A stretch of DNA of 64,000 nucleotides from Pseudomonas furukawaii (GTDB lineage Bacteria > Pseudomonadota > Gammaproteobacteria > Pseudomonadales > Pseudomonadaceae). Positions within the stretch are counted from its first letter, which is position 1; each line of letters opens with the position of its first letter. The translations under genes were made by a program, and so were the position numbers. Positions 3,559 through 64,000 of the stretch are shown here, in pieces. The DNA lies in assembly GCF_002355475.1 (NCBI RefSeq), contig NZ_AP014862.1, forward strand, positions 1,116,001-1,180,000, given 5' to 3'. A model generated the notes under the pieces. It worked only from the letters and a program-made list of their open reading frames with translations, did no database searches and was not told the DNA's origin.

Positions 3559-6500
3559 AGATCCTCAGCCTGCGCCTGAAGAACCTCAACTCCCTGAAGG
3601 GTGAATGGAAGATCGACTTCACCGGCGAGCCCTTCGCGGGCAATGGCCTGTTCGCCATCACCGGCCCCACCGGCGCCGGCAAGACCACCCTGCTGGACGC
3701 CATCTGCCTGGCCCTGTATCACCGTACGCCGCGCATGGGCACGGTCTCTGCCAGCCTCAACGAGCTGATGACGCGCCATACGGCCGACTGCCTGGCGGAG
3801 GTGGAGTTCGAGGTGAAGGGCGTGGGCTATCGCGCCTTCTGGAGCCAGCGTCGCGCCCGTGACCGGGTGGATGGGGGCCTGCAGGCTCCCAGGGTGGAGC
3901 TGGCGCGCATCGCCGACGGGGAAATCCTCAGCGACAAGGTGGCGGACAAGCTCCGGCTCACCGAACGCCTGACCGGGCTCGATTTCGACCGTTTCACCAA
4001 GTCCATGCTGTTGGCCCAGGGCGGGTTCGCCGCGTTCCTGGAGGCCAATGCCAACCAGCGTGCGGAGCTGCTGGAAGAACTCACCGGCACCGACATCTAC
4101 GGACTGATCTCCCAACGCGTCTTCGAGCGCACCCGGGAGGTGAAGGCCGGCCTCGACCAGCTTCGCGCCCGCGCCGAAGGGGTGGAGCTGCTGGGCGATG
4201 ACGCGCGCCTCGCCCTGGAGGCGGAGGCGGAGGGGCTGGCTTCGGACGAGCGACAGTTGCAGGCGCTCCAGGCCGATCTGCAACGACAGCGCCAGTGGCG
4301 CGATGAACTGGACAAGGCGCTTGCCCGCCAACAGTCCGCCGAACGACAGGCCCTGGCGGCTCGCGAAGCCTTGCAGCAGGCCCAGCCCCAACTGGCACGT
4401 CTGGCGGCCAGTGAGCCCGCCAGCCGCCTGCAGCCCCTGCACCGCGACTGGCAGCGCAGTGTGCTGCAACTGGAGCAGGGCGAGGGCGAGCTGCGGGTCA
4501 CCCGGCAGGAGCTTAAAGACCTGGCCGAGCGCATCCTCGGCCAGCTGTGGCGGGGCGCCCAACTGAGCGAGCAATGGGTCGCTGTCCGGCAGCGCGCCGT
4601 GGAAAGCCTCCTGAATGAGCGTGAGGGCCTTGAGCGGCGCCTGGCCGAGCATCCGCAGCGGGCCCGGCTGGGCGAGCATCTGGGGGGCTGGCGGGCGGAG
4701 CTCGGCGCCCTGGCTCGGCGCCAGGCGGAGATCGGCGAACTGCAGCGCGAGCAGGCTGCGCTCAGCGGGCAAGCGACGGCGCTGGAGCAGCGGTTGTCGT
4801 CCGCTCGAAGCGCCGTCGAGTCCGCCCATGCCGAGCAGGTGCAGGCGCAGCTGGGCGAGCGGGAGGCACAGGTCCGGCTGGACGAGTTGCTGGCCGGCCA
4901 GGATGACGTCGCCCTGCGGGAGCAGTGGCAGCGGCTTCTGGAGCGCGGCGCTCAGCTCGAGCGGCTGGAACAGTTGTCCCAGCAGCGCCGGCAACTGGCC
5001 GAGCGCCAGGATCGGACCCGGGCCCAGTTGCTGCCCCTGGAGGAGGAGCGCCGTGGTCTGGGGGAGCAACGGGATGCCCTGCGGCGCCGTTTCAGCGAGC
5101 TGAAGCAGCAGATCGCCGACAAGGAGAAGCTGCTCGAGCAGGAGCGTCGCATCCAGCAACTGGAGGCCTATCGTGCCGCCCTCCAGCCTGGCGATGCCTG
5201 CCCGCTGTGCGGTTCCCACGAGCATCCGGCGATCGCCGAATACCAAGCGCTCGACCTGTCCGACACCCAGCGGGCCCTGGAGGCCTCCAAGCAGGCCCAG
5301 GACGAGGTGCGCCAGCAGGGGGAAATCCTCAGCAACCGGCTTTCCGCCCTGGAGGCCCAGGCCCAGCAGCTGGGCGAGGCGTTGCAGGGCTTCGAGACGG
5401 AGCAGCGTGAAGTCGTCGAGCACTGGCGCCAACTGTGCCAGGCGCTGGCGCTGCAGCTTCCCGACCTGGCCGCCTTGCATGCCGAGCGCGAGGCGCACGC
5501 TGCGCGGGTCCAGGCCTTGCAGGAGCGCCTCGGGCACCTGGACCGGATGAAGGCCGAACTGGCGTCTGTCCGCGAGGGGCGGCAACGGGCCGAGCAACAC
5601 CGGCAGGCCTGCGACAGCGCATTCGCGCTGCTGGAGAAGGAGCTGGCCGGACTGCACCAGCGCGAGCAGGCGACTGTCCAGCGACTGGAGCAGTCGCATG
5701 GCGCGCAGAGCGAGGCACGTGCGAGTCTCATTGCGGGGCTGGCATCGCTGGGCTACGAACTTCCCGAGTCCGGGGAGGCCTGGCTCGCCGAGCGCGAGGC
5801 GGAATGGCGGCAATGGCAGCAGGACCAGGCCAGCCGCCAGGAGCTGGAGGAACGACTACGGGACCAGCAGCTTGCCCTGGCCCGCGCCCGGGAACAGGCG
5901 AGCGTCTGGCTTGGGCGCTGGCAGGCCTCCGGCGAGCCCGACCGGGCGCCTCTGGCGCCGGCACCGGACCCCGAGGCCGCATTGGCGACCGAGCAGGCGG
6001 AGCTGGACCTGGCGCAGCAGCGTCTCAATCACTTGAAGGGGAGCGAGCACAGCCAGGATCAACGGCTGCAGGCGCTCCGCCTCCAGCAATTGCAGCACCT
6101 CGACGCCTGGCGACAGGCCCTCGCGGCCAGTCCGTTCAACGACGAGCCGGCCTTTCTCGCCGCGTTGCTCGACGAGGTCGAGCGCGCGGGCCTGCAGGAC
6201 CTGCAACAGCGGCTGGAACGGGAGCGGGGGGATGCCGAGGCCCTGCTGGCGGACGCCCGGGCGCACGCCGGACGCTTGCAGGCCGAGCCGGCCAGTGCGC
6301 TGGCTCCCGAGCAGCTGGACGCCGAGTGGCAGGCCCTCGGCGAGCGCCTGCGGGGGCTCAGCCAGCGCCAGGGCGAGATTCGCGCCCAGCTGTCGGGTGA
6401 TGCCCTGCGACGGCAGAACCTTCAGGCCCTGTTCGCCGAGATCGGTCGCCAGGAAGCCGACTACGACCTCTGGCAGCGCCTGAACAGCCTGGTGGGCTCC

Positions 6501-6986
6501 GCCGATGGGGCCAAGTACCGCAAGTTCGCCCAGGGCCTGACGCTGGATCACCTGGTGCACCTGGCCAATCGTCAGTTGCAGCGGCTGCACGGTCGCTATC
6601 AGCTGGCGCGGCGCCAGGGGGGCGAGCTGGAGCTCGAAGTGGTGGATACCTGGCAGGCGGACACGGCCCGGGACTGCAAGACCCTGTCGGGTGGGGAGAG
6701 TTTCCTCGTCAGCCTGGCGCTGGCGCTGGCCCTGTCGGACCTGGTGAGTCACAAGACCAGCATCGATTCGCTGTTCCTCGATGAGGGCTTCGGTACCCTG
6801 GACGGCGAAACCCTGGAGGTCGCCCTGGATGCCCTGGACGCGCTCAACGCCAGCGGCAAGATGATCGGGGTGATCAGCCACGTCGAAGCGCTCAAGGAGC
6901 GTATTCCGGTGCAGCTCAGGGTGCACAAGGGCGTGGGCATGGGCTACAGCCGGCTGGACCCGCGCTTCAGTGTCACCGCTCCCTGA
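3555..6986 (+). CDS. sbcC: Exonuclease SbcCD subunit C (SMC-like ATPase)
   Basis: 1143 aa, the Rad50-like ATPase partner of SbcD. The Walker A motif GPTGAGKT is at residues 37-44. A very long Q/E/R/A/L-rich antiparallel coiled coil follows, split by the zinc-hook CPLC at 549-552. The C-terminal half-ATPase has the LSGGES signature at 1044-1049 and Walker B '[12 protein letters not shown]' with D1076-E1077. ATP-driven head closure opens DNA to the SbcD nuclease. The start ATG at 3555 overlaps the sbcD stop. The gene ends convergently 14 bp from rlmF. The coiled-coil codon bias produces several long but meaningless reading frames on the opposite strand. Confidence 0.97.
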
Positions 6987-6993
6987 GGGAGCG
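6977..6993. terminator. Short hairpin between convergent sbcC and rlmF
   Basis: CGCTCCC-TGA-GGGAGCG forms a 7-bp stem whose loop is the sbcC stop codon. It sits between two convergent genes only 14 bp apart. There is no T-run on either side, so a terminator role is plausible only by position. Confidence 0.35.
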
Positions 6994-7000
6994 GGCGACC

Positions 7001-7996
7001 TCAGGCCTGCCAGCGCGCCCGCCGCCATGCCTCGCGCTGGTCGGCATCGAGGAAGGTCCAGGCGACGAAGCGGCTCTGCTTCTGGCCCTGGGCCATTTCC
7101 ACCGTGCGTATCTCGACGGCATCGCTGCGCCGCAGTCGTGCCTCCATGCCCGGCACATTGCCGCCTTTCGATACCAGGCTGCTGAACCAGAGCACCTGGT
7201 CCCGGAACTGGCGGCTCTCGTCCACCATTCGCTGGAGGAAGGCGGATTCGCCACCCTCGCACCAGAGCTCCGCGCCCTGGCCACCGAAGTTGAGCACCGG
7301 CAGCTTGCGTTCAGGGGCCTGCTTGCCGAGGTTCTTCCACTTGCGCCGGCTGCCGCGCGTGGCTTCGTCCAGGGAGCTGTGGAAGGGCGGATTGCAGAGG
7401 GTGAGGTCGAAGCGCTCGCCCGGCGCGATGAGCCCCTTGAAGATCTGCTTGGGGGCCGCCTGCCGGCGCAGGTCGATGGCGCTTGTCAGCTGGTTGGACC
7501 CTACGATGGCGAGGGCCGAATCCAGGGCGGTCGGGTCGATGTCCGCGCCGGTGAAGTGCCAGCCGTACTCCTGGTGGCCGATGAGGGGATAGATGCAGTT
7601 GGCGCCCACGCCGATGTCCAGGGCCTGGAGGCCCTTGCCCCGGGGAATGACGCCGCCGTTGTCCGCCGCCAGCAGGTCCGCCAGGCCGTGAAGGTAGTCG
7701 GCCCGCCCGGGAATCGGCGGGCACAGGTAACCCGGCGGGATGTCCCAGTGGCGAATGCCGTAGAACTGTCGCAGCAGCGCACGGTTGAACACCTTCACCG
7801 CTTCGGGGTCGGCGAAGTCGATGCTTTCCTTGCCGTAGGGGTTGGTGATGACGAAGCGCGCCAGTTCCGGGCTGCCCTGGATCAGTTGGGGGAAGTCGTA
7901 GCGTCCCTGGTGGCGGTTGCGCGGGTGCAGTTGCCCCTTGGTGGGGGCGGCGGGTTTCGCGGGGGCGGGGCGTGAACGCTTGGGCGGTTGCGGCAT
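7001..7996 (-). CDS. rlmF: 23S rRNA (adenine(1618)-N(6))-methyltransferase
   Basis: 331 aa, ATG at 7996. RlmF uses S-adenosylmethionine to methylate N6 of A1618 of 23S rRNA. The basic, proline-rich N-terminus (residues 1-30) precedes the family pattern '[17 protein letters not shown]'. The SAM-binding motif DIGVGAN is at 127-133, the acidic '[10 protein letters not shown]' follows at 150-159, and the amino-methyltransferase motif N202-P-P-F205 is at the active site. It is a single gene, convergent with sbcC and codirectional with the SLC13 gene upstream, 67 bp apart. Confidence 0.95.
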
Positions 7997-8063
7997 GGCG
8001 GCGATGTCGAGGGGAAACGCGGCATTTTCCCACAGCGGGGGTGCCCGTGGGGACCCGCGTCCA

Positions 8064-9893
8064 TCAGAGCGGGAATACCAGGGGCACCATGAAGACGCTG
8101 ACGATCATCACCAGCACCGTGAAGGGCACGCCGACCCTCACGAAGTCGCCGAAGCGGTACTGCCCCGGTCCCACCACCAGGGTGTTCACCGGGGAGGAAA
8201 TGGGCGTCATGAAGGCCGCCGAGGCCGCCAGTGCGACGATCATGGCGAAGGGGTAGGGCGACAGGCCCAGTTGCTGGGCGGTGCCTATGGCCACCGGCGC
8301 CATCAGCACGGCGGTGGCGGTGTTGGAGATGAACAGGCCGATCAGGGAGGTCGCGGCGAAGAGGCAGGCCAGCATGGCGTAAGGGCCGGCGTTGCCCAGC
8401 AGGGCCACCAGTCCCTTCACCGCCAGGTCGATTCCGCCGGTCTGCTGCAGCGCCTGGGCGAAGGGCAGCATGCCGACGATCAGCACCAGCGTGGGCCAGT
8501 GGATGGCGCGATAGGCGCTGTCCAGGTCGATGCAGCGGAAGGCGCCCATCAGCAGGCAGCCGATCAGTGCCGCCATCACGTTGGGCACCAGCCCGCTGAC
8601 CATCAGGACGATCATCACCGCCAGGCTGAGCAGCGCGTAGGGCGCCTTGCGGGCGGTGGGCGCCACTTCGTCCACCTCGGCGGGCAGGCTCAGGACCAGG
8701 AAGTCCCGGCTCTTGCCCTGGAGCTGGTGGATCGCCCGCCAGTCACCCGCCACCAGCAGGGTGTCCGAGGTCTTGAGCTTCTCGTCCACCAGCAGTCCGT
8801 CCAGCGCGCGGCCCTGGCGGCGCAGGCCGACCACGTTGAGCTTGTGCCGGGTGCGGAAGCCCAACGCCTGGATGGTCTTGCCGGGGAGGCTGGATTCGGG
8901 CGGGAAGGCGACTTCGGCCAGACCCAGCTGATGGGCATGCAGGCTGTAGTAGGAGGCCGTCAACGGCAGGGGTTCCAGGCCCAGCTCCTGGTAGGCGCCG
9001 AGCAGGCCGATGGCGGGGCTGGCCAGGTCCACCAGGAGGACGTCGCCGGGCTCCAGCAGGGTGTTGCCGGTGGCCATCAGCAGCAGGGTACGGAAGCGCT
9101 GCTGGCGCTCCACGGCGATGACGTTGATGCCGTACTGCTTGCGCAGCTCCAGTTCGTTCAGCGCCTGGCGTGCCAGGGGCGAGTCGGGGCGGACCCGCAG
9201 CCGGCGCTCGCGTTGGTTCAGGTCGTAGGCGGTGGCGAGGTCCGTCAGGGTCAGGCGCGGCGCCGCATCGGCCTGGTCTCGGCCCCTCGGGGTGAGCCAG
9301 CGGCGGGTCGCCAGCATGTACAGCACGCCCAGTGCCAGCACCGCCAGCCCTACCGGCGTCAGGCTGAAGAAGCCAAAGCCGTCGAGACCGGCGCGGCGCA
9401 GTTCGCTGTGGACCACCAGGTTGGGGGCGGTGGCCACCAGGGTGAGCATGCCGCTGATGAGGCCGGCGAAGGCCAGCGGCATCATCAGGCGCGCCGGGGG
9501 AATCTTGAGTCGCGCGGCGACGCCCAGGGCCACCGGGATGAAGATGGCCACCACGCCGGTGGAGCTCATCACCGAGCCCAGCCCGGCGGCGGCCAGCATC
9601 AGCAGCACCAGCAGGCGGGTCTCGCTGCTGCCGGCCCTGGCCACCAGCCAGTCCCCCAGGCGATAGGCGATGCCGGTCCGGACCAGGCCGTCGCCGATGA
9701 CGAAGAGCGCGGCGATCAACACCACGCTGGGGTCGCTGAAGCCGGCCAGGGTGTGCTGGATGTCCAGCACGCCGGTCAGCGGCAGGGCGACCATCACCAG
9801 CAGGGCGACCACGTCCATGCGCGGCCTGTTGAGGATGAAGAGGGTGACGGCAACCGCCAGCAGGCCGAGGACCATCAGCAGATCGAGGTTCAA
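8064..9893 (-). CDS. SLC13/DASS-family transporter with two TrkA_C (RCK-C) domains, YfbS-like
   Basis: 609 aa with block-by-block similarity to E. coli YfbS ('[21 protein letters not shown]', '[17 protein letters not shown]', '[17 protein letters not shown]', '[19 protein letters not shown]'). Two clusters of hydrophobic segments (about 1-190 and 395-609) flank two cytoplasmic RCK-C domains (about 215-380). This is the usual fold of DASS-type anion/carboxylate or sulfate carriers; the substrate cannot be read from sequence. The start is taken as TTG at 9893 because GGGAG sits 7 nt upstream and homologues begin MN(L/G)xL. The first ATG would be at 9875. Confidence 0.88.
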
Positions 9894-9928
9894 ACGCAGC
9901 TCCCGGAGTGGACTGGCGGGGCAGGGTC

Positions 9929-10225
9929 TCAGGGATAGCCGAGGACCGCCTTGATCTGATGCAGGTTAGTGGCGATCCAGCGCTTGTCGATGGCGCCCCA
10001 GTCGCGGATTTCGTAGTGGCCGGCGTTGTTGCGTTCGCCCTCGGCCTGGGCGAAGTGGCATTCGATATCCAGTTCGCCCAGGGCGGAGAGGGTGTCCTGG
10101 GCGGTGCGCCGGGGCATGCCGGTGGCGTCCATGATCGCCGGGACGCTGGTGGCGGCGCCGCTGTCGATCAGCCAGGCGACGTAGAGGCGGCGATAGAAGC
10201 TGGTCTTGGTCTTGCTGGTTTCCAT
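9929..10225 (-). CDS. Small winged helix-turn-helix protein
   Basis: 98 aa from the ATG at 10225 (METSKTKTSFYRRLYVAWLID). An AGGGA ribosome-binding site lies 5 nt upstream, better than an upstream in-frame start. Residues 15-60 look like a winged HTH: 'RRLYVAWLIDSG', 'TSVPAIMDATGMPRRTAQDTLSALGELDI', then a beta-hairpin wing. No ligand-binding domain is present. It sits 64 bp downstream of valS and 35 bp upstream of the SLC13 gene, both codirectional, so it may be co-transcribed with either. The target is unknown. The protein type is common in Pseudomonas but functionally uncharacterised as far as I know. Confidence 0.75.
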   Translation of the reverse strand: METSKTKTSFYRRLYVAWLIDSGAATSVPAIMDATGMPRRTAQDTLSALGELDIECHFAQAEGERNNAGHYEIRDWGAIDKRWIATNLHQIKAVLGYP

Positions 10226-10289
10226 GGGCGTTCCCTGCGTTGTGCCAGGCGTGAAGTTCGAGGCCCGCATCAGCGGGCCTCGTCAGGGT

Positions 10290-13139
10290 TTACAGGTTGG
10301 CGATCTTCTCGCGCTGCTCGGCCAGCCTGGCCAGTGCCTGTTCGGCTTCGGCCAGCTTGGCGCGCTCCTTGTCGAGCACCTCGGCCGGGGCCTTGGCGAC
10401 GAAGCCTTCGTTGGCGAGCTTGCCGCCGACGCGCTTGACCTCGCCGTCCAGGCGCTGAATCTCCTTGTCCAGGCGCGCCAGTTCGGCGTCCTTGTCGATC
10501 AGGCCGGCCATGGGCACCAGCACCTGCATGTCGCCCACCAGGGCGGTGGCGGACATGGGGGCTTCCTCGCCGCTGGCCAGGACGCGGACGGATTCGAACT
10601 TGGCCAGCTTGTTCAGCAGCGGTCCGTTCTCATTCAGGCGGCGCAGGTCTTCGTCACTGGCGTTGGCCAGGACCACGTCGATGCGCTTGGCCATGGAGAT
10701 CTTCATCTCGCCACGGATCTGGCGCACGCCGAGCATCAGCGTCTTGACCCATTCGATGTCGCCTTCGGCGGCAGCGTCGATGCGGCTTTCGTTGGCCACC
10801 GGCCAGGGTTGCAGCATCAGGGTGTCGCCGCTGACGCCGGCCTGGGCCTTGATGCGCTGCCAGATCTCTTCGGTGATGAAGGGCATGAAGGGGTGGGCCA
10901 GGCGCAGGATGACCTCCAGCACGCGTACCAGGGTGCGGCGGGTGCCGCGCTGGCGCTCGATGGGAGCGTTCTCGTCCCAGAGCACCGGCTTGACCAGTTC
11001 GAGGTACCAGGAGCAGTACTCGTCCCAGACGAACTCGTAGAGGGCCTGGGTGGCCAGGTCGAAGCGGAAGGCGTCGAGCTGGCGGGTGACTTCGGCTTCG
11101 GTGCGCTGCAGCTGGCTGATGATCCAGCGGTCGACCGAGGAGAGGTCCACGGCTTCGCCGTTGACGCCGGTGTCCTGGCCGTCGGTGTTCTCGATGACGA
11201 AGTTGGCGGCGTTCCACAGCTTGTTGCAGAAGTTGCGGTAGCCCTCGACCCGGCCCATGTCGAACTTGATGTCGCGGCCGGTGGAGGCCAGGGAGCAGAA
11301 GGTGAAGCGCAGGGCGTCGGTGCCGTAGCTGTTGATGCCATCGGGGAATTCGGCGCGGGTCTGCTTGGCGATCTTCTCGGCCAGCTTGGGCTGCATCATG
11401 CCGCTGGTGCGTTTCTCCAGCAGGGTGTCGAGATCGATGCCGTCGACGATGTCCAGCGGGTCCAGCACGTTGCCCTTGGACTTGGACATCTTGTGGCCCT
11501 GGGAGTCGCGTACCAGGCCGTGGACGTAGACGGTCTTGAACGGAACCTGCGGGGTGCCATCCTCGTTCTTCACCAGGTGCAGGGTCAGCATGATCATGCG
11601 GGCGACCCAGAAGAAGATGATGTCGAAGCCGGTGACCAGGACGTCGGTGGGGTGGAAGGTCTTGAGGTACTCGGTCTGTTCCGGCCAGCCGAGGGTGGAG
11701 AAGGTCCACAGGCCGGAGCTGAACCAGGTGTCCAGCACGTCCTCGTCCTGGCGCAGCGGCTGGTCGCCCAGGTTGTGCTTGGCGCGGACTTCGGCCTCGT
11801 CGCGGCCGACGTAGACGTTGCCGGCCTCGTCGTACCAGGCGGGGATGCGGTGGCCCCACCAGAGCTGCCGGCTGATGCACCAGTCCTGGATGTCACGCAT
11901 CCAGGAGAAGTACATGTTCTCGTACTGCTTGGGCACGAACTGGATACGGCCGTCTTCCACGGCGGCGATGGCGGGCTCGGCCAGGGGCTTGGTGGAAACG
12001 TACCACTGGTCGGTGAGCCAGGGCTCGATGACGGTGCCGGAGCGGTCGCCCTTGGGCACTTTCAGCGCGTGGTCTTCGATCTTTTCCAGCAGGCCGAGCT
12101 GTTCGAAGGCGGCGACGATCCGCTTGCGGGCTTCGAAGCGGTCGAGGCCGGCGAACTCGGCCGGGAGGCTGGCGTCGAGGTCGTGGTTGACGCTGCCGTC
12201 GAGGTTGAACACCTGGGCGGTGGCGAGCACGGCGGCGTTCTTGTCGAAGATGTTGATCAGCGGCAGGTTGTGGCGCTTGCCGACTTCGTAGTCGTTGAAG
12301 TCGTGGGCCGGGGTGATCTTCACGCAGCCGGTGCCGAACTCGGGGTCGCAGTAGTCGTCGGCGACGATGGGGATGCGACGACCCACCAGGGGCAGTTCGA
12401 CGAAGGTGCCGATCAGGGCCTTGTAGCGCTCGTCCTCCGGATGCACGGCGACGGCGCTGTCACCCAGCATGGTTTCCGGGCGGGTGGTGGCGACGATCAG
12501 GTAGTCCTTGCCGTCAGCGGTCTTGTGGCCGTCGGCCAGGGGGTAGCGCAGGTTCCACAGGTGGCCTTTCTCGTCATGGTTTTCCACTTCGAGGTCGGAG
12601 ATGGCGGTGTGGAACTTGGTGTCCCAGTTGACCAGGCGCTTGCCACGGTAGATCAGGCCATCGTCGAACAGGCGGACGAAGGCTTCCTTGACCGCTTCGG
12701 AGAGACCGTCGTCCATGGTGAAGCGCTCGCGGGACCAGTCGACGGAGGAGCCGAGGCGACGGATCTGCCGGGTGATGGTGCCGCCGGACTCTTCCTTCCA
12801 CTCCCAGACCTTGTCGAGGAACTTCTCGCGGCCTAGGTCATGGCGGCTCACGCCCTGGGCGGCCAGCTGGCGCTCCACCACCATCTGGGTGGCGATGCCG
12901 GCATGGTCGGTGCCCGGCTGCCAGAGGGTGTTGCGACCCTGCATGCGGCGGAAGCGGATCAGGGCGTCCATGATCGCGTTGTTGAAGCCGTGTCCCATGT
13001 GCAGGCTGCCGGTGACGTTCGGCGGCGGGATCATGATGGTGTAGGGCTCGCCGGAACCTTGCGGGGCGAAGTAGTTGTTCTTCTCCCAAGTCTGGTACCA
13101 GGAAGTTTCGATGGCGTGGGGCTGGTAGGTCTTGTCCAT
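10290..13139 (-). CDS. valS: Valine--tRNA ligase
   Basis: 949 aa, ATG at 13139. Class I aminoacyl-tRNA synthetase that charges tRNA-Val. The HIGH-type motif H47-M-G-H50 follows 'PPPNVTGSL', and the KMSKS loop is intact at 550-554. The editing (CP1) domain occupies roughly 190-390. The anticodon-binding domain is C-terminal. The last ~65 residues form the valine-enzyme coiled coil ('[20 protein letters not shown]'). Full length for the family. Upstream on the same strand are a small unknown gene, holC and pepA, in the usual Pseudomonas order. Confidence 0.98.
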
Positions 13140-19077: not shown

Positions 19078-19163
19078 TGGTGCCCCGGGAGAGACTCGAA
19101 CTCTCACTCTGTCGCCAGAAACGGATTTTGAATCCGCCGCGTCTACCATTCCGCCACCGAGGC
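19078..19163 (-). tRNA. tRNA-Leu (anticodon CAA)
   Basis: 86 nt on the minus strand with an encoded CCA end. The acceptor stem GCCTCGG pairs with CCGGGGC (one G-U). The D-arm begins GCGGAATGGTAGACGC. The anticodon loop TTCAAAA has CAA at 34-36, reading UUG. A long class II variable arm (around TGGCGACAG) and the T-loop GTTCGAGTC follow. The long variable arm and G-A/A73 discriminator fit leucine. It lies antisense just upstream of queA. Confidence 0.96.
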
Positions 19164-59219: not shown

Positions 59220-60800
59220 ATGGCCCATCACGATATCCACGCCCACCGAATCCTGATCCTCGACTTCGGCTCCCAGTACACCCAGCTGATCGCCCGCCGC
59301 GTTCGCGAGATCGGTGTGTACTGCGAAATCCATCCCTTCGACATGAGCAACGAGGCGATCCGCGCCTTCGCCCCCCGTGGCGTGATCCTCGCCGGTGGCC
59401 CGGAGTCAGTGCACGAAGCCGACAGCCCGCGCGCTCCCCATGCGGTGTTCGACCTGAACGTCCCGCTGCTGGGCATCTGCTACGGCATGCAGACCATGGC
59501 CGAGCAGCTGGGTGGCAAGGTGCAGGGTTCGGACCTGCGCGAGTTCGGCTACGCCCGCGTCGACGTGGTGGGCAAGTCGCGCCTGCTGGACGGCATCGAA
59601 GACCACGTGGATGACGACGGCGTGCTGGGCCTGGACGTGTGGATGAGCCACGGCGACAAGGTCACCACCCTGCCCGCAGGCTTCCACATCCTGGCCAGCA
59701 CCCCGAGCTGCCCTATCGCCGCCATGGCCGATGACAGCCGCGCGTACTACGGCGTGCAGTTCCACCCGGAAGTGACCCACACCAAGCAGGGCGGTCGCAT
59801 CCTTTCCCGCTTCGTGCTGGACATCTGCGGCTGCGCCGCCCTGTGGACCCCGTCCAACATCGTCGAAGACGCCATCGCCACCGTGCGCGCCCAGGTGGGT
59901 TCGTCCAAGGTGCTGCTGGGCCTGTCCGGCGGCGTCGACTCCTCCGTGGTGGCGGCCCTGTTGCACAAGGCCATCGGCGACCAGCTGACCTGCGTCTTCG
60001 TCGACAACGGCCTGCTGCGCCTGCACGAGGGTGACCAGGTGATGGCCATGTTCGCCGAGAACATGGGCGTGAAGGTGATTCGCGCCAACGCCGAGGACAA
60101 GTTCCTGGGCCGCCTGGCCGGCGTCGCCGACCCGGAAGAGAAGCGCAAGATCATCGGCCGCACCTTCATCGAGGTCTTCGATGAGGAGGCCACCAAGCTC
60201 CAGGACGTGAAGTTCCTCGCCCAGGGCACCATCTACCCCGACGTGATCGAGTCGGCCGGCGCCAAGACCGGCAAGGCCCACGTGATCAAGTCCCACCACA
60301 ACGTCGGCGGTCTGCCGGAAGACATGCAGTTCGAGCTGGTTGAACCCCTGCGCGAACTGTTCAAGGACGAAGTGCGCAAGATCGGCCTCGAGCTGGGCCT
60401 GCCCTACGACATGGTCTACCGCCACCCCTTCCCGGGCCCGGGCCTCGGCGTGCGCATCCTCGGCGAAGTGAAGAAGGAGTACGCCGACCTGCTGCGTCGC
60501 GCCGACCACATCTTCATCGAGGAGCTGCGCAACTTCGACTGGTACCACAAGACCAGCCAGGCCTTCGTGGTGTTCCAGCCGGTGAAATCCGTGGGCGTGG
60601 TCGGCGACGGCCGTCGCTACGCCTGGGTCGTCGCCCTGCGCGCCGTGGAAACCATCGACTTCATGACCGCGCGCTGGGCGCACCTGCCCTACGAGCTGCT
60701 GGAGAAGGTCTCCAACCGCATCATCAACGAGATCGAAGGCATCTCCCGCGTCACCTACGACGTATCGAGCAAGCCGCCGGCGACCATCGAGTGGGAGTGA
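59220..60800 (+). CDS. guaA: GMP synthase (glutamine-hydrolysing)
   Basis: 526 aa, converting XMP to GMP. The class I glutamine amidotransferase (about 1-205) has the nucleophile Cys in '[17 protein letters not shown]' and the His/Glu in '[10 protein letters not shown]'. The ATP-pyrophosphatase domain has the P-loop '[16 protein letters not shown]'. The C-terminal dimer domain ends 'KPPATIEWE', as in other GuaA proteins. The 3' end of guaA is a known integration site for genomic islands, and foreign-looking DNA begins soon after it here. Confidence 0.98.
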
Positions 60801-60830
60801 TGGGCGCGCCTTCGGGTGAGCGTTGAAGGA

Positions 60831-60865
60831 ACCGGCCAGGCCCACAAAGCCTGGCCGGTTTCGTT
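60831..60865 (+). terminator. Intrinsic terminator after guaA
   Basis: ACCGGCCAGG and CCTGGCCGGT form a 10-bp stem (extendable by C-G) around a 9-nt loop, followed by TTCGTTTT, 30 bp past the guaA stop. Confidence 0.88.
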
Positions 60866-60866
60866 T

Positions 60867-61379
60867 TGGGCAAATAAAACTGCATCACGATGCTTCCGTC
60901 GGAACTCGGTGGTCAGCTCAGTCGCTGATGAGCTGGCTGGACCCGAAGCCGGCGAACGCCTTTACGTGGAGTCGTTTTGGATTTTCCTGCTTCGTGTGAA
61001 GAGTTTTCGTTTCGCTCCTACGTTCACGGAGCGGTATTGGAGGCGCCGGCGGTGAATTTTCATGACGCTAGATCACAAGTACAGACGGATATTCTTTTCT
61101 GTCGTGAATTCGTCCTTGCTCAGCACTGTTTTCGTTAATCGGAGTGACTGAATCCGAGTGAGTTGGGGGGCGCCATTCGGTCAGTGGATTGCTTAAAAAT
61201 AAATCTAGACCTCCATTTATTTTGAGTGTGTGAATTTTTTATTTGTCTGTGATGGAGGTTTGCTGATTCCTAAACGGTATTGCTTAAAAAGCAATTATCT
61301 TGAGTGTCTGTTGGTATTATTCTTTGGGCTCTCGCAGTTAATTTGTTTTTAGCGTCATGTACCGTTCAGGGAGTTAATC
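60867..61379. other. Gene-free boundary region between guaA and the AT-rich operon
   Basis: 513 bp with no convincing gene; a 79-codon plus-strand frame at 60816-61055 overlaps the terminator and has no family pattern. GC content falls across about 60,960-61,200: sampled 60-base lines go from 40 G/C (60901) to 25-33 (60961-61140) to 19 (61201). It probably contains the promoter of the downstream operon and a duplicated motif (61188-61310). A CGCTCCTACG string at 61014-61023 resembles a REP end but has no hairpins. Confidence 0.55.
61188..61310 (+). repeat. Duplicated motif upstream of the AfsA-containing operon
   Basis: ATTGCTTAAAAA occurs at 61188-61199 and 61279-61290. TTGAGTGTSTG follows each copy (61222-61232 and 61300-61310). 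In the second copy the motif is part of a perfect 7-bp inverted repeat ATTGCTT-AAA-AAGCAAT (61279-61295), about 85 bp before the first gene. A regulator-binding site is likely but unproven. Confidence 0.6.
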
Positions 61380-61982
61380 ATGCCTTCCAAGGTTGTCCTC
61401 ATCTCGCGTTTTAAATTTTCACCTCGGTTTAAGGGTGAGATTTTTGCTGATCTAATTTCGTCTGATCGCGTTCGTTATTATTTGGATTATGACGAAATGG
61501 AGCTTCTACAGCTCCGTGCCTACGATGATCTTGCCGATTTTTCTGGGGATGAATATGAGTTGGAAGCTGATGTTGAGCGCTTCAGGGAGTATATGTCGGC
61601 GGACGTGGTGAGGGAGTTACTCATGCATGTTGAGTCGCCCAAGCCATGCGACTCTAAATTGCCTGATACAGACTATATCCAGCTTCGTCATGTTGAGGTT
61701 TTACCTGAAAAGTATTCAGAATATCGACAGTGGCGTGCTGGTACGATTTTTCAGGTGGTGAAGGAAAGTGTGGCTGTTGAGGTTTTTTTAGCCTACCACT
61801 CAATGGTCAGTGGTCAGCCTGGTGTAATGTTTATCGCTGGATTCTCAGGAGACCCTGCTGAGTATCAAGAAGTTTTCGAAACTGATCGGTATCGTGAAAT
61901 CGTTCGGCAGGCAGGTAGTAATTATATAACCGGCGGCATGGATGGCTTGTATACGCGAAATTATTCTCGTTTGACATTCTAG
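61380..61982 (+). CDS. Hypothetical protein, probable dimeric alpha/beta-barrel (NIPSNAP/ABM/EthD-like) fold
   Basis: 200 aa, AGGGAG 7 nt before the ATG. I do not recognise a named family. Residues ~100-195 ('YIQLRHVEVLPEKYSEYRQWRAGTIF...YHSMVSGQPGVMFIAGFSGDPAEYQEVF') follow the beta-alpha-beta-beta pattern of NIPSNAP/antibiotic-monooxygenase-type ferredoxin-like domains. A weaker copy may lie at 1-90. These folds include cofactor-free oxygenases and cyclases in secondary metabolism. Low GC (about 45% in a sampled line) and TTT/ATT-rich codons differ sharply from guaA. It is the first gene of the foreign-looking operon, 76 bp before the afsA-like gene. Confidence 0.72.
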   Translation: MPSKVVLISRFKFSPRFKGEIFADLISSDRVRYYLDYDEMELLQLRAYDDLADFSGDEYELEADVERFREYMSADVVRELLMHVESPKPCDSKLPDTDYIQLRHVEVLPEKYSEYRQWRAGTIFQVVKESVAVEVFLAYHSMVSGQPGVMFIAGFSGDPAEYQEVFETDRYREIVRQAGSNYITGGMDGLYTRNYSRLTF

Positions 61983-62058
61983 GGCTTTTAGCTTGAGTTG
62001 GTTTGGTTTTCATATTTTCTATTAGGATGATTGGTTATTTTGCCTTGGTGGGGTTGAT

Positions 62059-62865
62059 ATGGAGCGTCGATGCTATTTCGTGGTGGGCGATAAGTTCAAG
62101 GCTTTCGCTGAGGGAAAGAATGTTCTCACCCTAAGTCAATTAAGGTCGCTGACTGATCTTCCGGATGGATTTATGGATGTCCGCGCCGTACTAAAGTTGG
62201 GGCAAGGTGTGCAAGAAGAGGAAGTGCGCGAAATCCTGAATAGGCACGAGAGCAGAGGAGGAGTCAAAGCACTGTTGGAATTATCGGATTTACATCGTGT
62301 AAAAGATCGTGCGGATAGTGTTATTAGTCATAAACGTTTTCCATACAACACCCTTATTGGCTCTCCGCAAAAAATCGTCGAGGATGAATTTCTGATTCCG
62401 TTGAATATTGATGAGCGTTGCGAGTTGATGGGGGATCACCAGACCGGGCAGCATGTGCAAGGAATGATAGTGATCGAAGCTTTCAGACAGTCCTTCTTGG
62501 CTGTTACGGAGGCTTTCTTTCCGCTTGAGAGCAAGAGTAGCTATTTTGTAATCAATATGATGAATGTGAGTTTCACGAGTTTCTTGTTTCCGCTGCCAGC
62601 GCATGTGAGTTATCGAGTTCTGGAGGCGAACAGAAGCAGGAAACGTGCACGTTATAAAGTGATCATGTCTGCAGTCCAAAATGAAGTTGCTTGTGCCACT
62701 GCTGAGGTGTCTTTTACCGTATATCCTGCCAGCAGTATTGCGCCAAAAGAGGCTGAGCTCGCCTACCAAGTCACTGAGGCTCTGCTTGGGCTCATGCCTC
62801 ACACGGTCAACCGTTCCATCCAGCCTGCAGGCGGAAAGACTCTGGCGTTGGAGATTGAGCGATGA
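62059..62865 (+). CDS. AfsA-related (A-factor biosynthesis) hotdog-domain protein
   Basis: 268 aa. Residues 88-155 match the AfsA hotdog pattern: H91-K92 followed by 'YNTLIGSPQKIVEDEFLIPLN', then D126-H-Q-T-G-Q-H-V-Q-G-M136 and E140-A-F-R143-Q144, the conserved 'DH..GM.xxEAxRQ' block. A second beta-rich half (about 160-225) follows. AfsA/ScbA enzymes condense a beta-ketoacyl-ACP with a C3 unit (dihydroxyacetone phosphate) to start gamma-butyrolactone signals in Streptomyces; relatives act in other small-molecule pathways. The first 85 residues are not part of the core and are unassigned. It overlaps the next gene by 4 bp (ATGA). Low GC. Family assignment is fairly firm; the reaction here is inferred. 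Confidence 0.8.
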   Translation: MERRCYFVVGDKFKAFAEGKNVLTLSQLRSLTDLPDGFMDVRAVLKLGQGVQEEEVREILNRHESRGGVKALLELSDLHRVKDRADSVISHKRFPYNTLIGSPQKIVEDEFLIPLNIDERCELMGDHQTGQHVQGMIVIEAFRQSFLAVTEAFFPLESKSSYFVINMMNVSFTSFLFPLPAHVSYRVLEANRSRKRARYKVIMSAVQNEVACATAEVSFTVYPASSIAPKEAELAYQVTEALLGLMPHTVNRSIQPAGGKTLALEIER

Positions 62866-63689
62866 CCAAGGTCTATTCCCTCAGCGTTACCACCCAGGGA
62901 CCGCTTTACCCGCCAAGCGAAATCATGAATGAAGCGGGGGACTTCATCGTGATCGGGCGCATTCCACAAGCGGATGGCACGCTTCCCTGGGGAGGAGCGA
63001 TCGTGTCTTCCGCAACCCAAGCCCCTACATTCAATGAATTAGGTGTGTATGACGTATTGAAGTGGATCGACTTGACGAACTTGGGAAAGTTGGCCGACCA
63101 AGTACTACACACGCTGCCTCTGCCATTGCCGGTCAATAATTACCCAATTTTGTTCGCACCCGAGCAACGGCCTCAGGCGCATAGTGAATTCCGCTCTAGT
63201 TTTCCCCTCCACGAGGCGCCGGTTCCTGACCTTCGTGCCGAGGATGGTCGCAGGCGAAAGTCTCCGATAACTCTGAGGCAGTGGTTGCGAGCAAGCGGGG
63301 AACTAAAGGTCAGTGTGGATAATGGTGGTCGCACTGCCTTGTTTGAACTTGAGTGCAAAAATCTACTGCCAGACAGCCTCTATACCGTCATGAGTTTGCG
63401 CCAAAACGATCTTCGCCCCGAGAACCCCAGCCGGCCAGGACCGCTAGGCATACCCAACGCGTTCATAACAGATGCTGAGGGCAATGGTTACTACTGGGCT
63501 CGCCTGCCCAATCCATTTCCCGATGCAAGCCTTCCCAGTGCAAACCGTATTATCAATGTGGTCGTATTGTACATGAGTTCTCAGATGACTCATGGCGGGG
63601 CTGTCGGTTGGTACGGATTGGGCGCAGATATACATGCCCAGTTGAAGCTAAAGGCCGATAGTTTCTCCAGCCTACTCACATGTGGCTAA
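62862..63689 (+). CDS. Hypothetical protein of the AfsA-type cluster
   Basis: 275 aa, ATG coupled to the afsA-like stop. I do not recognise it. There is no signal peptide or membrane segment. The middle (about 85-135) is Pro/Arg-rich and may be a linker. The C-terminal half ('KVSVDNGGRTALFELECKNLLPDSLYTVMSLRQND...GNGYYWARLP...IINVVVLYMSS...GGAVGWYGLGADIHAQLKL') looks like a beta-sandwich; the closing 'VVVLYMSSQMTHGG...GADIHAQLKL' has a His-containing turn that could bind metal. Tight coupling to the AfsA-type protein suggests a role in the same pathway. Confidence 0.75.
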   Translation: MTKVYSLSVTTQGPLYPPSEIMNEAGDFIVIGRIPQADGTLPWGGAIVSSATQAPTFNELGVYDVLKWIDLTNLGKLADQVLHTLPLPLPVNNYPILFAPEQRPQAHSEFRSSFPLHEAPVPDLRAEDGRRRKSPITLRQWLRASGELKVSVDNGGRTALFELECKNLLPDSLYTVMSLRQNDLRPENPSRPGPLGIPNAFITDAEGNGYYWARLPNPFPDASLPSANRIINVVVLYMSSQMTHGGAVGWYGLGADIHAQLKLKADSFSSLLTCG

Positions 63690-63741
63690 ATAAAATTCAA
63701 TTCATTAAAAATAAATTGCATGAGCCTATCGAGGATATTCC

Positions 63742-63972
63742 ATGCCTGTAATACATATCGCTACATGGCCGATTGAGGATGAACGAGTCGCACGAGCCAT
63801 AATCGAGGGAGTGACACGGGTCGTTCATGAATTGAGCGGCGTTCCGCTCGACAAAATATCAGTTTACATATCGGAGATCATGCCCTCCAGATGGGGGGAT
63901 GCCGGAGTACTTGGCACCGATCCAGAGTTCAAAAAGCAGAGTCGGCGTCTGAGTTATGAGGATAGCCAGTGA
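63742..63972 (+). CDS. 4-oxalocrotonate tautomerase-family protein
   Basis: 76 aa. After Met removal Pro-1 (MPVIHIATWP) would be the catalytic base of the tautomerase superfamily. 'GVTRVVHELSGVPLDKISVYISEIMPSRWGDAGVLGTDPEF' matches the small tautomerase pattern. GAGG is 7 nt upstream. Such enzymes isomerise enol/keto acids or add water, a plausible tailoring step for a butyrolactone- or polyketide-like product. It follows the 275-aa gene by 52 bp in the same direction. Confidence 0.85.
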   Translation: MPVIHIATWPIEDERVARAIIEGVTRVVHELSGVPLDKISVYISEIMPSRWGDAGVLGTDPEFKKQSRRLSYEDSQ

Positions 63973-64000
63973 ATGGATTGACCGGTTTGGTTTCGGAGCC
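63969..64000 (+). CDS. Possible next gene of the cluster, cut by the window edge
   Basis: A GTG at 63969 overlaps the tautomerase stop (GTGA) and opens a frame reading VNGLTGLVSE to the edge. Coupled overlaps are used within this operon, so a real gene is plausible, but ten codons cannot identify it. The nearby ATG at 63973 hits a stop after two codons. Confidence 0.3.
   Translation, partial: MNGLTGLVSE

Follow-up and report, generated by a model that had tools for sequence, protein, structure and literature searches.

The window analysed here is a 64,000-nucleotide stretch of Pseudomonas furukawaii DNA (assembly GCF_002355475.1, contig NZ_AP014862.1, positions 1,116,001 to 1,180,000) that ends within a nine-gene cassette containing the gene for an AfsA-family, phosphorylated-butenolide-synthase-like protein. 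The cassette occupies an island of low guanine plus cytosine (GC) content of ~7.8 kb, delimited by its GC dip and by flank comparison, which extends from window position 60870 past the window end at 64000 (~1176870-1184693 on the large contig, G000:C1; ~4870-12693 in the longer locus record L002, whose positions become window positions when 56000 is added). The host genome (G000) comprises 6.24 Mb in two contigs. GC contents are 42-59% within the island compared to ~62-73% in its flanks, and the island is bordered by guaA (59220-60800) on the left and by an intradiol-dioxygenase-like gene on the right. Among 17 other genomes of the genus (L076-L092), ten have an empty site in which the right flank follows soon after guaA with only a short spacer, six have other sequence within 1.5 kb after guaA and in one the contig ends early, which indicates that the cassette lies at a variable site after guaA (window 60800-60870 onward). 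The low GC content noted in the original prediction is confirmed, and the horizontal acquisition proposed there is supported by the GC dip and the empty site. The island is a horizontally acquired member of the killing cluster type known from Ruegeria pomeroyi.

Eight operon genes are codirectional on the forward strand and the ninth, a LysR gene, is convergent to them. The first four open reading frames are present where they had been placed: p200 (61380-61982; 200 amino acids, aa), the AfsA gene (62059-62865; 268 aa), p275 (62862-63689; 275 aa) and a 4-oxalocrotonate-tautomerase-family gene (63742-63972; 76 aa), with the tautomerase call upheld by a PF01361 match just above the cut-off (23.3 vs 22 bits). 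A probable fifth gene at the window edge is real: it starts at 63969, extends 670 bases past the window (63969-64000 in the window; L002:7969-8670) and encodes a 233-aa HAD-IB phosphatase (PF12710, E 5.1e-30; TIGR01490, 131.4 bits vs a cut-off of 98.3). Beyond the window, the operon continues on the same strand with genes for a major facilitator superfamily (MFS) transporter (L002:8709-9926), a carboxymuconolactone-decarboxylase-family (CMD) protein (L002, ATG at 9923, stop at 10333) and an aldo/keto reductase (AKR; L002:10341-11369), and ends at the convergent LysR gene (L002:12402-11389). The genes had been described as mostly coupled, which holds for the stop/start overlaps of AfsA/p275 (ATGA) and tautomerase/HAD (GTGA), but p200/AfsA and p275/tautomerase are separated by 76 and 52 bases, respectively; MFS/CMD also overlap (ATGA).

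Two of these proteins belong to families that profile searches do not name. No significant Pfam match was obtained for any of 57 p275 members (one chance match, E 0.083) and no relative by sequence was found in the PDB (best E 0.75), in keeping with the original description of p275 as unrecognised. Its alignment has 52 invariant columns in 57 sequences, H117, D123, R180, D256 and H258 among them (L049, with an over-long frame, partial L064, L005 and L006 are omitted there and in the tree). The label "alpha/beta-barrel-like" given earlier to p200 is not established, with the ABM family touched by 2 of 47 aligned members (best E 0.072; partial L023, L029, L031 and L064, plus L005 and L006, are omitted). 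Matches of either protein to Pfam or PDB-sequence families are at chance level. A phage or toxin module was also considered and rejected: p275 has no match in phage records, and the neighbouring genes encode enzymes, an exporter and a regulator.

Eight of the nine cassette genes have homologues in the "GBL" killing cluster of R. pomeroyi DSS-3 (SPOA0339 upwards), which answers in part the original statement that the gene combination matched no described pathway. AfsA (46% by tblastn to SPOA0342) is flanked by homologues of SPOA0341 (p275) and SPOA0343 (p200, 49%), with HAD, tautomerase, MFS, CMD and AKR genes also present; the numbers SPOA0341 and SPOA0343, and SPOA0344 for the LysR gene, were mapped by gene order in the record. 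Both clusters have p200-AfsA-p275-tautomerase-HAD in the same order, whereas MFS-CMD-AKR form a divergent block on a megaplasmid in R. pomeroyi, in contrast to eight codirectional genes on the large contig in P. furukawaii. Sharpe et al. (2020, PMC7426152) report that competitors are no longer killed by a diffusible agent once a transposon has inserted in SPOA0341, SPOA0342 (AfsA) or SPOA0344 (a predicted regulator); the SPOA0341 and SPOA0344 mutants become sensitive as well, whereas afsA mutants stay immune. In the afsA mutant, 21 genes changed, including 10 in the cluster itself, and ten cluster genes were down 4- to 60-fold; a proteome study cited there puts five cluster proteins at 1-6% of the proteome (PMC7426152). 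The same report left undecided whether the molecule is a weapon or a signal, and it had already noted homologues in Gammaproteobacteria and Actinobacteria (PMC7426152).

Membership of the 268-aa protein in the AfsA hotdog family, as originally proposed, is supported by its PF03756 match (E 2.2e-11, 44.3 bits vs a cut-off of 24), which is the sole such match in a genome-wide profile search of the host. The AfsA block read from the sequence also stands: D126, H127, E140, R143 and Q144 do not vary among the 37 sequences aligned, which comprise 36 of the 56 AfsA-bearing loci described below and the window. The protein shares the PF03756 domain and the E140/R143/Q144 block with AfsA/ScbA/BarX synthases, but it differs from them in three respects. 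Its score with the ScbA/BarX equivalog model (NF041195) is 24.1 bits, where 200 are required. It has one PF03756 stretch, as do all six cassette-type or related proteins examined, compared to two tandem domains in both readable ScbA controls. In an AfsA tree, 38 cassette proteins lie apart from 10 ScbA-type proteins with an SH-aLRT of 100, a support that may be overstated because the tree was quick and has long branches on both sides. Likewise, none of 32 TetR matches in the host genome reaches the 150-bit cut-off for an ArpA/ScbR-type receptor (best 80.3). On the ScbA equivalog, two-domain and ScbR receptor tests, a classical A-factor system is rejected. A small-molecule pathway, as originally envisaged, is supported, but an A-factor-type hormone as its product is less well supported.

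The AfsA gene has further company elsewhere. In five of six Streptomyces genomes tested, the contig that bears the cassette AfsA also encodes an ScbA-type protein over the cut-off, at a distance of 6.7-9.9 kb, so that cassette AfsA is a second such enzyme there beside a presumed hormone synthase; the five genomes are close relatives and speak for one lineage, and the sixth (G901) gave no result, as its cassette AfsA was not among the proteins compared. The TetR protein encoded next to the cassette in these relatives does not reach the ScbR cut-off either (46.5 vs 150). A similar pairing is described for the methylenomycin cluster, with mmyD beside mmfL, although MmyD is likened to AvrD and not to AfsA in the available account (PMC12593393). 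A second, different AfsA-HAD pair was seen in a congener (G008:C1:3165000-3184000, 8095-9715; L009/L103), with AfsA at 38%. It resembles the window in having AfsA followed by a HAD-IB-like protein and an MFS gene upstream, and it differs in that p275 is absent from the genome, p200 is absent from the 3.7 kb that L009 spans, and genes named by eye as MarR-like and RND-type lie upstream and downstream, respectively.

A motif-based p275 scan, built on the p275 alignment and run over 84,980 named species genomes, gave 58 loci, 34 in Actinomycetota and 24 in Pseudomonadota; it relied on two exact peptide motifs and is incomplete, three further p275 having been found outside it. Within the flanks of these loci, AfsA occurs in 56, HAD in 55, p200 in 50, tautomerase in 38, CMD in 29, AKR in 27, MFS of this type in 22 and LysR of this type in 13, where the AKR and LysR counts are lower bounds for diverged copies. 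All three of AfsA, HAD and p275 are found at 55 of 58 loci. An uninterrupted order of p200-AfsA-p275-tautomerase-HAD on one strand is present in 18 of 58 loci, 17 of them in Proteobacteria classes and one in a proteobacterial bin without class. Of 398 genomes sampled from the family, only the window's own has p275, and the same holds for p200 among 369 genomes sampled from the class. The nearest relative of the window p275 (67%) is from a Lake Pavin metagenome-assembled genome that has all nine genes in the same arrangement. In the p275 tree, actinobacterial and proteobacterial members are split by one branch (support 76/85), and alpha- and gammaproteobacteria are intermixed. Purifying selection is indicated by ratios of nonsynonymous to synonymous substitution rates (dN/dS) of 0.02-0.30, obtained from four pairs of relatives for the genes counted. 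Variant cassettes with two KASIII-like genes each were seen in Amycolatopsis (L060, L062), with a cytochrome P450 identified in L060. A tautomerase-CMD fusion suspected from overlapping reading frames in Glycomyces (L019) was discarded, as a stop lies between both in the same frame; the frame likewise stops after the tautomerase in L036 and L040. The CMD protein that follows the tautomerase in Glycomyces (L019, 13900-14700) seems by eye to have two CMD-like repeats.

AfsA-type enzymes join dihydroxyacetone phosphate (DHAP) and a 3-ketothioester into a phosphorylated 2-acylbutenolide, a reaction shown in vitro for another AfsA-type domain (PMC7756379). In the SAB pathway of Streptomyces ansochromogenes, a phosphatase and a reductase act after the AfsA-type step, so that SabA/SabP/SabD resemble the cassette in combining an AfsA homologue with both enzymes; by contrast, the available descriptions, on which this comparison rests, mention no p275, p200, tautomerase or CMD protein (PMC7756379, PMC6930871). 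Judged from its genes and those of its relatives, the cassette probably starts from DHAP and a short 3-ketoacyl thioester, which may be acetoacetyl. Candidate suppliers recur in relatives and suggest a short donor of the acetoacetyl-CoA or acetoacetyl-ACP (acyl carrier protein) kind, and with it a C7 acetylbutenolide scaffold, which in bare form would be 3-acetyl-4-(hydroxymethyl)furan-2(5H)-one (C7H8O4, monoisotopic mass 156.04). A 3-ketoacyl-ACP synthase III (KASIII) occurs in 22 of 58 loci, all actinobacterial, and a Streptomyces YIM 121038 plasmid has both KASIII and ACP at the cassette. Thiolase genes accompany 4 of 58 loci (Vibrio, Erwinia) and 3 of 9 additional ones, with a fifth match among the 58 (L030, 8.8 kb away, 41%) taken as unrelated. 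Three KASIII proteins tested exceed the cut-off of the FabH subfamily model NF006829 (3/3) and, in two cases, that of TIGR00747; two thiolases tested score best with an acetyl-CoA C-acetyltransferase model, below its cut-off, and exceed that of the broad thiolase subfamily. For their acyl donor, the window and R. pomeroyi cassettes would depend on central metabolism. Acaterin, protoanemonin and tetrenolin were considered as possible products, and a literature search yielded nothing that ties acaterin or tetrenolin to such genes.

A role of the reductase and exporter in self-protection is suggested by loci in which either is retained with no AfsA gene close by. In Shewanella sp. SR44-3, AKR, MFS, CMD, p275 and tautomerase genes lie side by side, and a genome-wide search gave no AfsA match; its p275 retains 52 of 52 otherwise invariant positions, and p275 was found in 0 of 128 other Shewanella genomes. 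In the order of Erwinia persicina, cassette-type AKR occurs in 10 of 394 sampled genomes (E up to 1e-110), four of which have core genes and six of which have no core gene within ~9 kb; those six keep AKR with a LysR-type and/or MFS gene, and MFS lies beside AKR in three of them. This repeated occurrence of AKR and MFS without AfsA fits immunity through export and reduction of an electrophile. A decayed-looking cassette was seen not far from uhpT in Enterobacter hormaechei FDAARGOS 1433 (L073, 6893-11578), in which LysR, tautomerase, MFS and AKR are present and p200 and HAD are shortened; AfsA, p275 and CMD were not found in this stretch, and the absence of AfsA and p275 covers that record at the search cut-offs used. 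In three genomes of 2.7-2.9 Mb from the Erwinia persicina order (L116, L117, L119), which may be of host-associated bacteria, core genes are accompanied by a thiolase and an NHL-repeat protein, with a short-chain dehydrogenase/reductase read in L119 only. NHL-repeat proteins lie near 4 of 58 cassettes and at 4 further loci; the one tested exceeds the NHL and SMP-30/gluconolactonase cut-offs and is below that for virginiamycin B lyase, and such a protein may be another protection factor.

On this evidence we consider it probable, at roughly 60%, that the cassette makes, exports and protects against a diffusible antibacterial compound of butenolide type. The AfsA-like protein would join DHAP to a short 3-ketoacyl thioester, for which acetoacetyl-CoA supplied by central metabolism is the likeliest candidate, and so form a phosphorylated 2-acylbutenolide, from which the HAD-IB protein would take off the phosphate. 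p275 and p200 would turn the butenolide into the active compound, the MFS protein would export it and AKR, with the tautomerase and CMD-like protein, would reduce or isomerise re-entering compound and so confer immunity, with the LysR protein switching the operon. This proposal draws on the genes present and their domains, on homology to a cluster for which killing and immunity have been published and on the class reaction demonstrated in vitro elsewhere; each step in P. furukawaii, the acyl donor, the parts assigned to p275 and p200 and killing by the product are what we infer from them.

Several observations weigh against this proposal. No product is reported in the literature found for any cassette member. 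Neither KASIII nor thiolase lies near the window or R. pomeroyi loci, so that the acyl donor of the window cassette is extrapolated from relatives. Since FabH-type enzymes may accept branched starters as well, the acyl chain may be longer. The window LysR protein is not orthologous to that of R. pomeroyi, since only the helix-turn-helix region aligns (40.8 bits). The R. pomeroyi afsA mutant stays immune even though immunity genes should be down, and its loss of ten cluster transcripts is also explicable by a signal. No more than 27 of the 58 loci have AKR and no more than 22 have MFS of this type, and stand-alone AKR-LysR or AKR-MFS pairs may be older unrelated units recruited into the cassette instead of remnants of it. 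The persistence of p275 in Shewanella without AfsA makes a purely biosynthetic role uncertain. p275 is indeed two-faced: its near-constant company with AfsA and HAD places it in the synthesis core, yet it is needed for R. pomeroyi immunity, unless the insertions are polar.

Among the alternatives, the one that survives best retains an AfsA-type first step and changes the end product: p275, p200, the tautomerase and the CMD-like protein would rearrange the AfsA product into a furan, of which the methylenomycin furans are an example, or into some other ring. AfsA-type intermediates enter several product classes (PMC7756379), a comparable condensation, performed by the AvrD-like MmyD, gives rise to methylenomycins (PMC12593393) and the operon holds four proteins of unassigned reaction. 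Direct evidence for such a rearrangement was not found, however, and no more than 38 of 58 loci have the tautomerase gene and 29 the CMD gene. A non-butenolide product is a possible but rather doubtful outcome.

A signal is the less likely alternative, and we regard it as unlikely: the cassette would make an A-factor-like or AHFCA/AHMB-like hormone that acts through LysR, or through some other regulator, to activate further genes, among them those for an antibiotic made elsewhere. AfsA homologues are best known from hormone synthesis, which is what SabA/SabP/SabD perform (PMC7756379, PMC6930871), and the response of the R. pomeroyi afsA mutant is compatible with autoinduction (PMC7426152). However, few genes outside the R. 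pomeroyi cluster respond in the data available from that study, and the share of the proteome taken by five cluster proteins is a large outlay for a signal (PMC7426152). The host genome has no ScbR-type receptor over the cut-off, its AfsA is not an ScbA equivalog and falls on a separate branch, and an ScbA-type protein accompanies the cassette in five of the six Streptomyces tested. The original prediction had also named genes to look for past 64,000; a reductase is there, as AKR, but KASIII or thiolase genes are absent nearby and so is an ScbR-type receptor over the cut-off from the genome. The R. pomeroyi transcription data fit a signal too, and the present data, like those of Sharpe et al. 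(2020, PMC7426152), leave weapon versus signal undecided. A catabolic role, with an aromatic or lactone compound broken down through CMD, tautomerase, AKR and LysR and the AfsA-like protein recruited as a hydrolase or dehydratase, is improbable: CMD, tautomerase and LysR weakly match beta-ketoadipate-type and related catabolic protein models and the AfsA profile touches a PDB acyl-ACP dehydratase (E 0.00082), but CMD and tautomerase are far below the equivalog cut-offs of catabolic enzymes, KASIII and ACP in relatives point to synthesis and the homologous R. pomeroyi cluster has a killing and immunity phenotype (PMC7426152).

If the antibacterial butenolide proposal is extended across all loci, a broader picture could follow, which we offer tentatively and at somewhat less than even odds. 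Very small antibacterial butenolides would be made from an acetoacetyl thioester and DHAP by a cassette common to Proteobacteria and Actinomycetes, with an AfsA branch devoted to a weapon instead of a hormone and p275 as a new enzyme family at its centre; strains with only the reductase and exporter, with or without p275, would be natural immune non-producers. Clusters of this kind have been known since 2020. The papers found give the R. pomeroyi cluster neither an identified product nor a pinned-down immunity gene, and no later product identification was encountered in the literature searched, with preprints and most subscription journals outside its range. The present analysis adds a chromosomal cassette and its empty site, a near-constant core of AfsA, HAD and p275, a branch of AfsA proteins with one domain, a predicted acyl donor and candidate immunity genes. 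A second cassette, in Pseudomonas, together with a predicted substrate pair and AfsA-free relatives in which reductase and exporter persist, enables tests of the identity of the molecule, of weapon versus signal and of which genes protect. The results also advise caution, as "A-factor-like cluster" calls in Gram-negative genomes need not imply hormones, and they add p275 as a widespread protein family without a Pfam match. The only tRNA gene in the window is a tRNA-Leu gene at 19078-19163.

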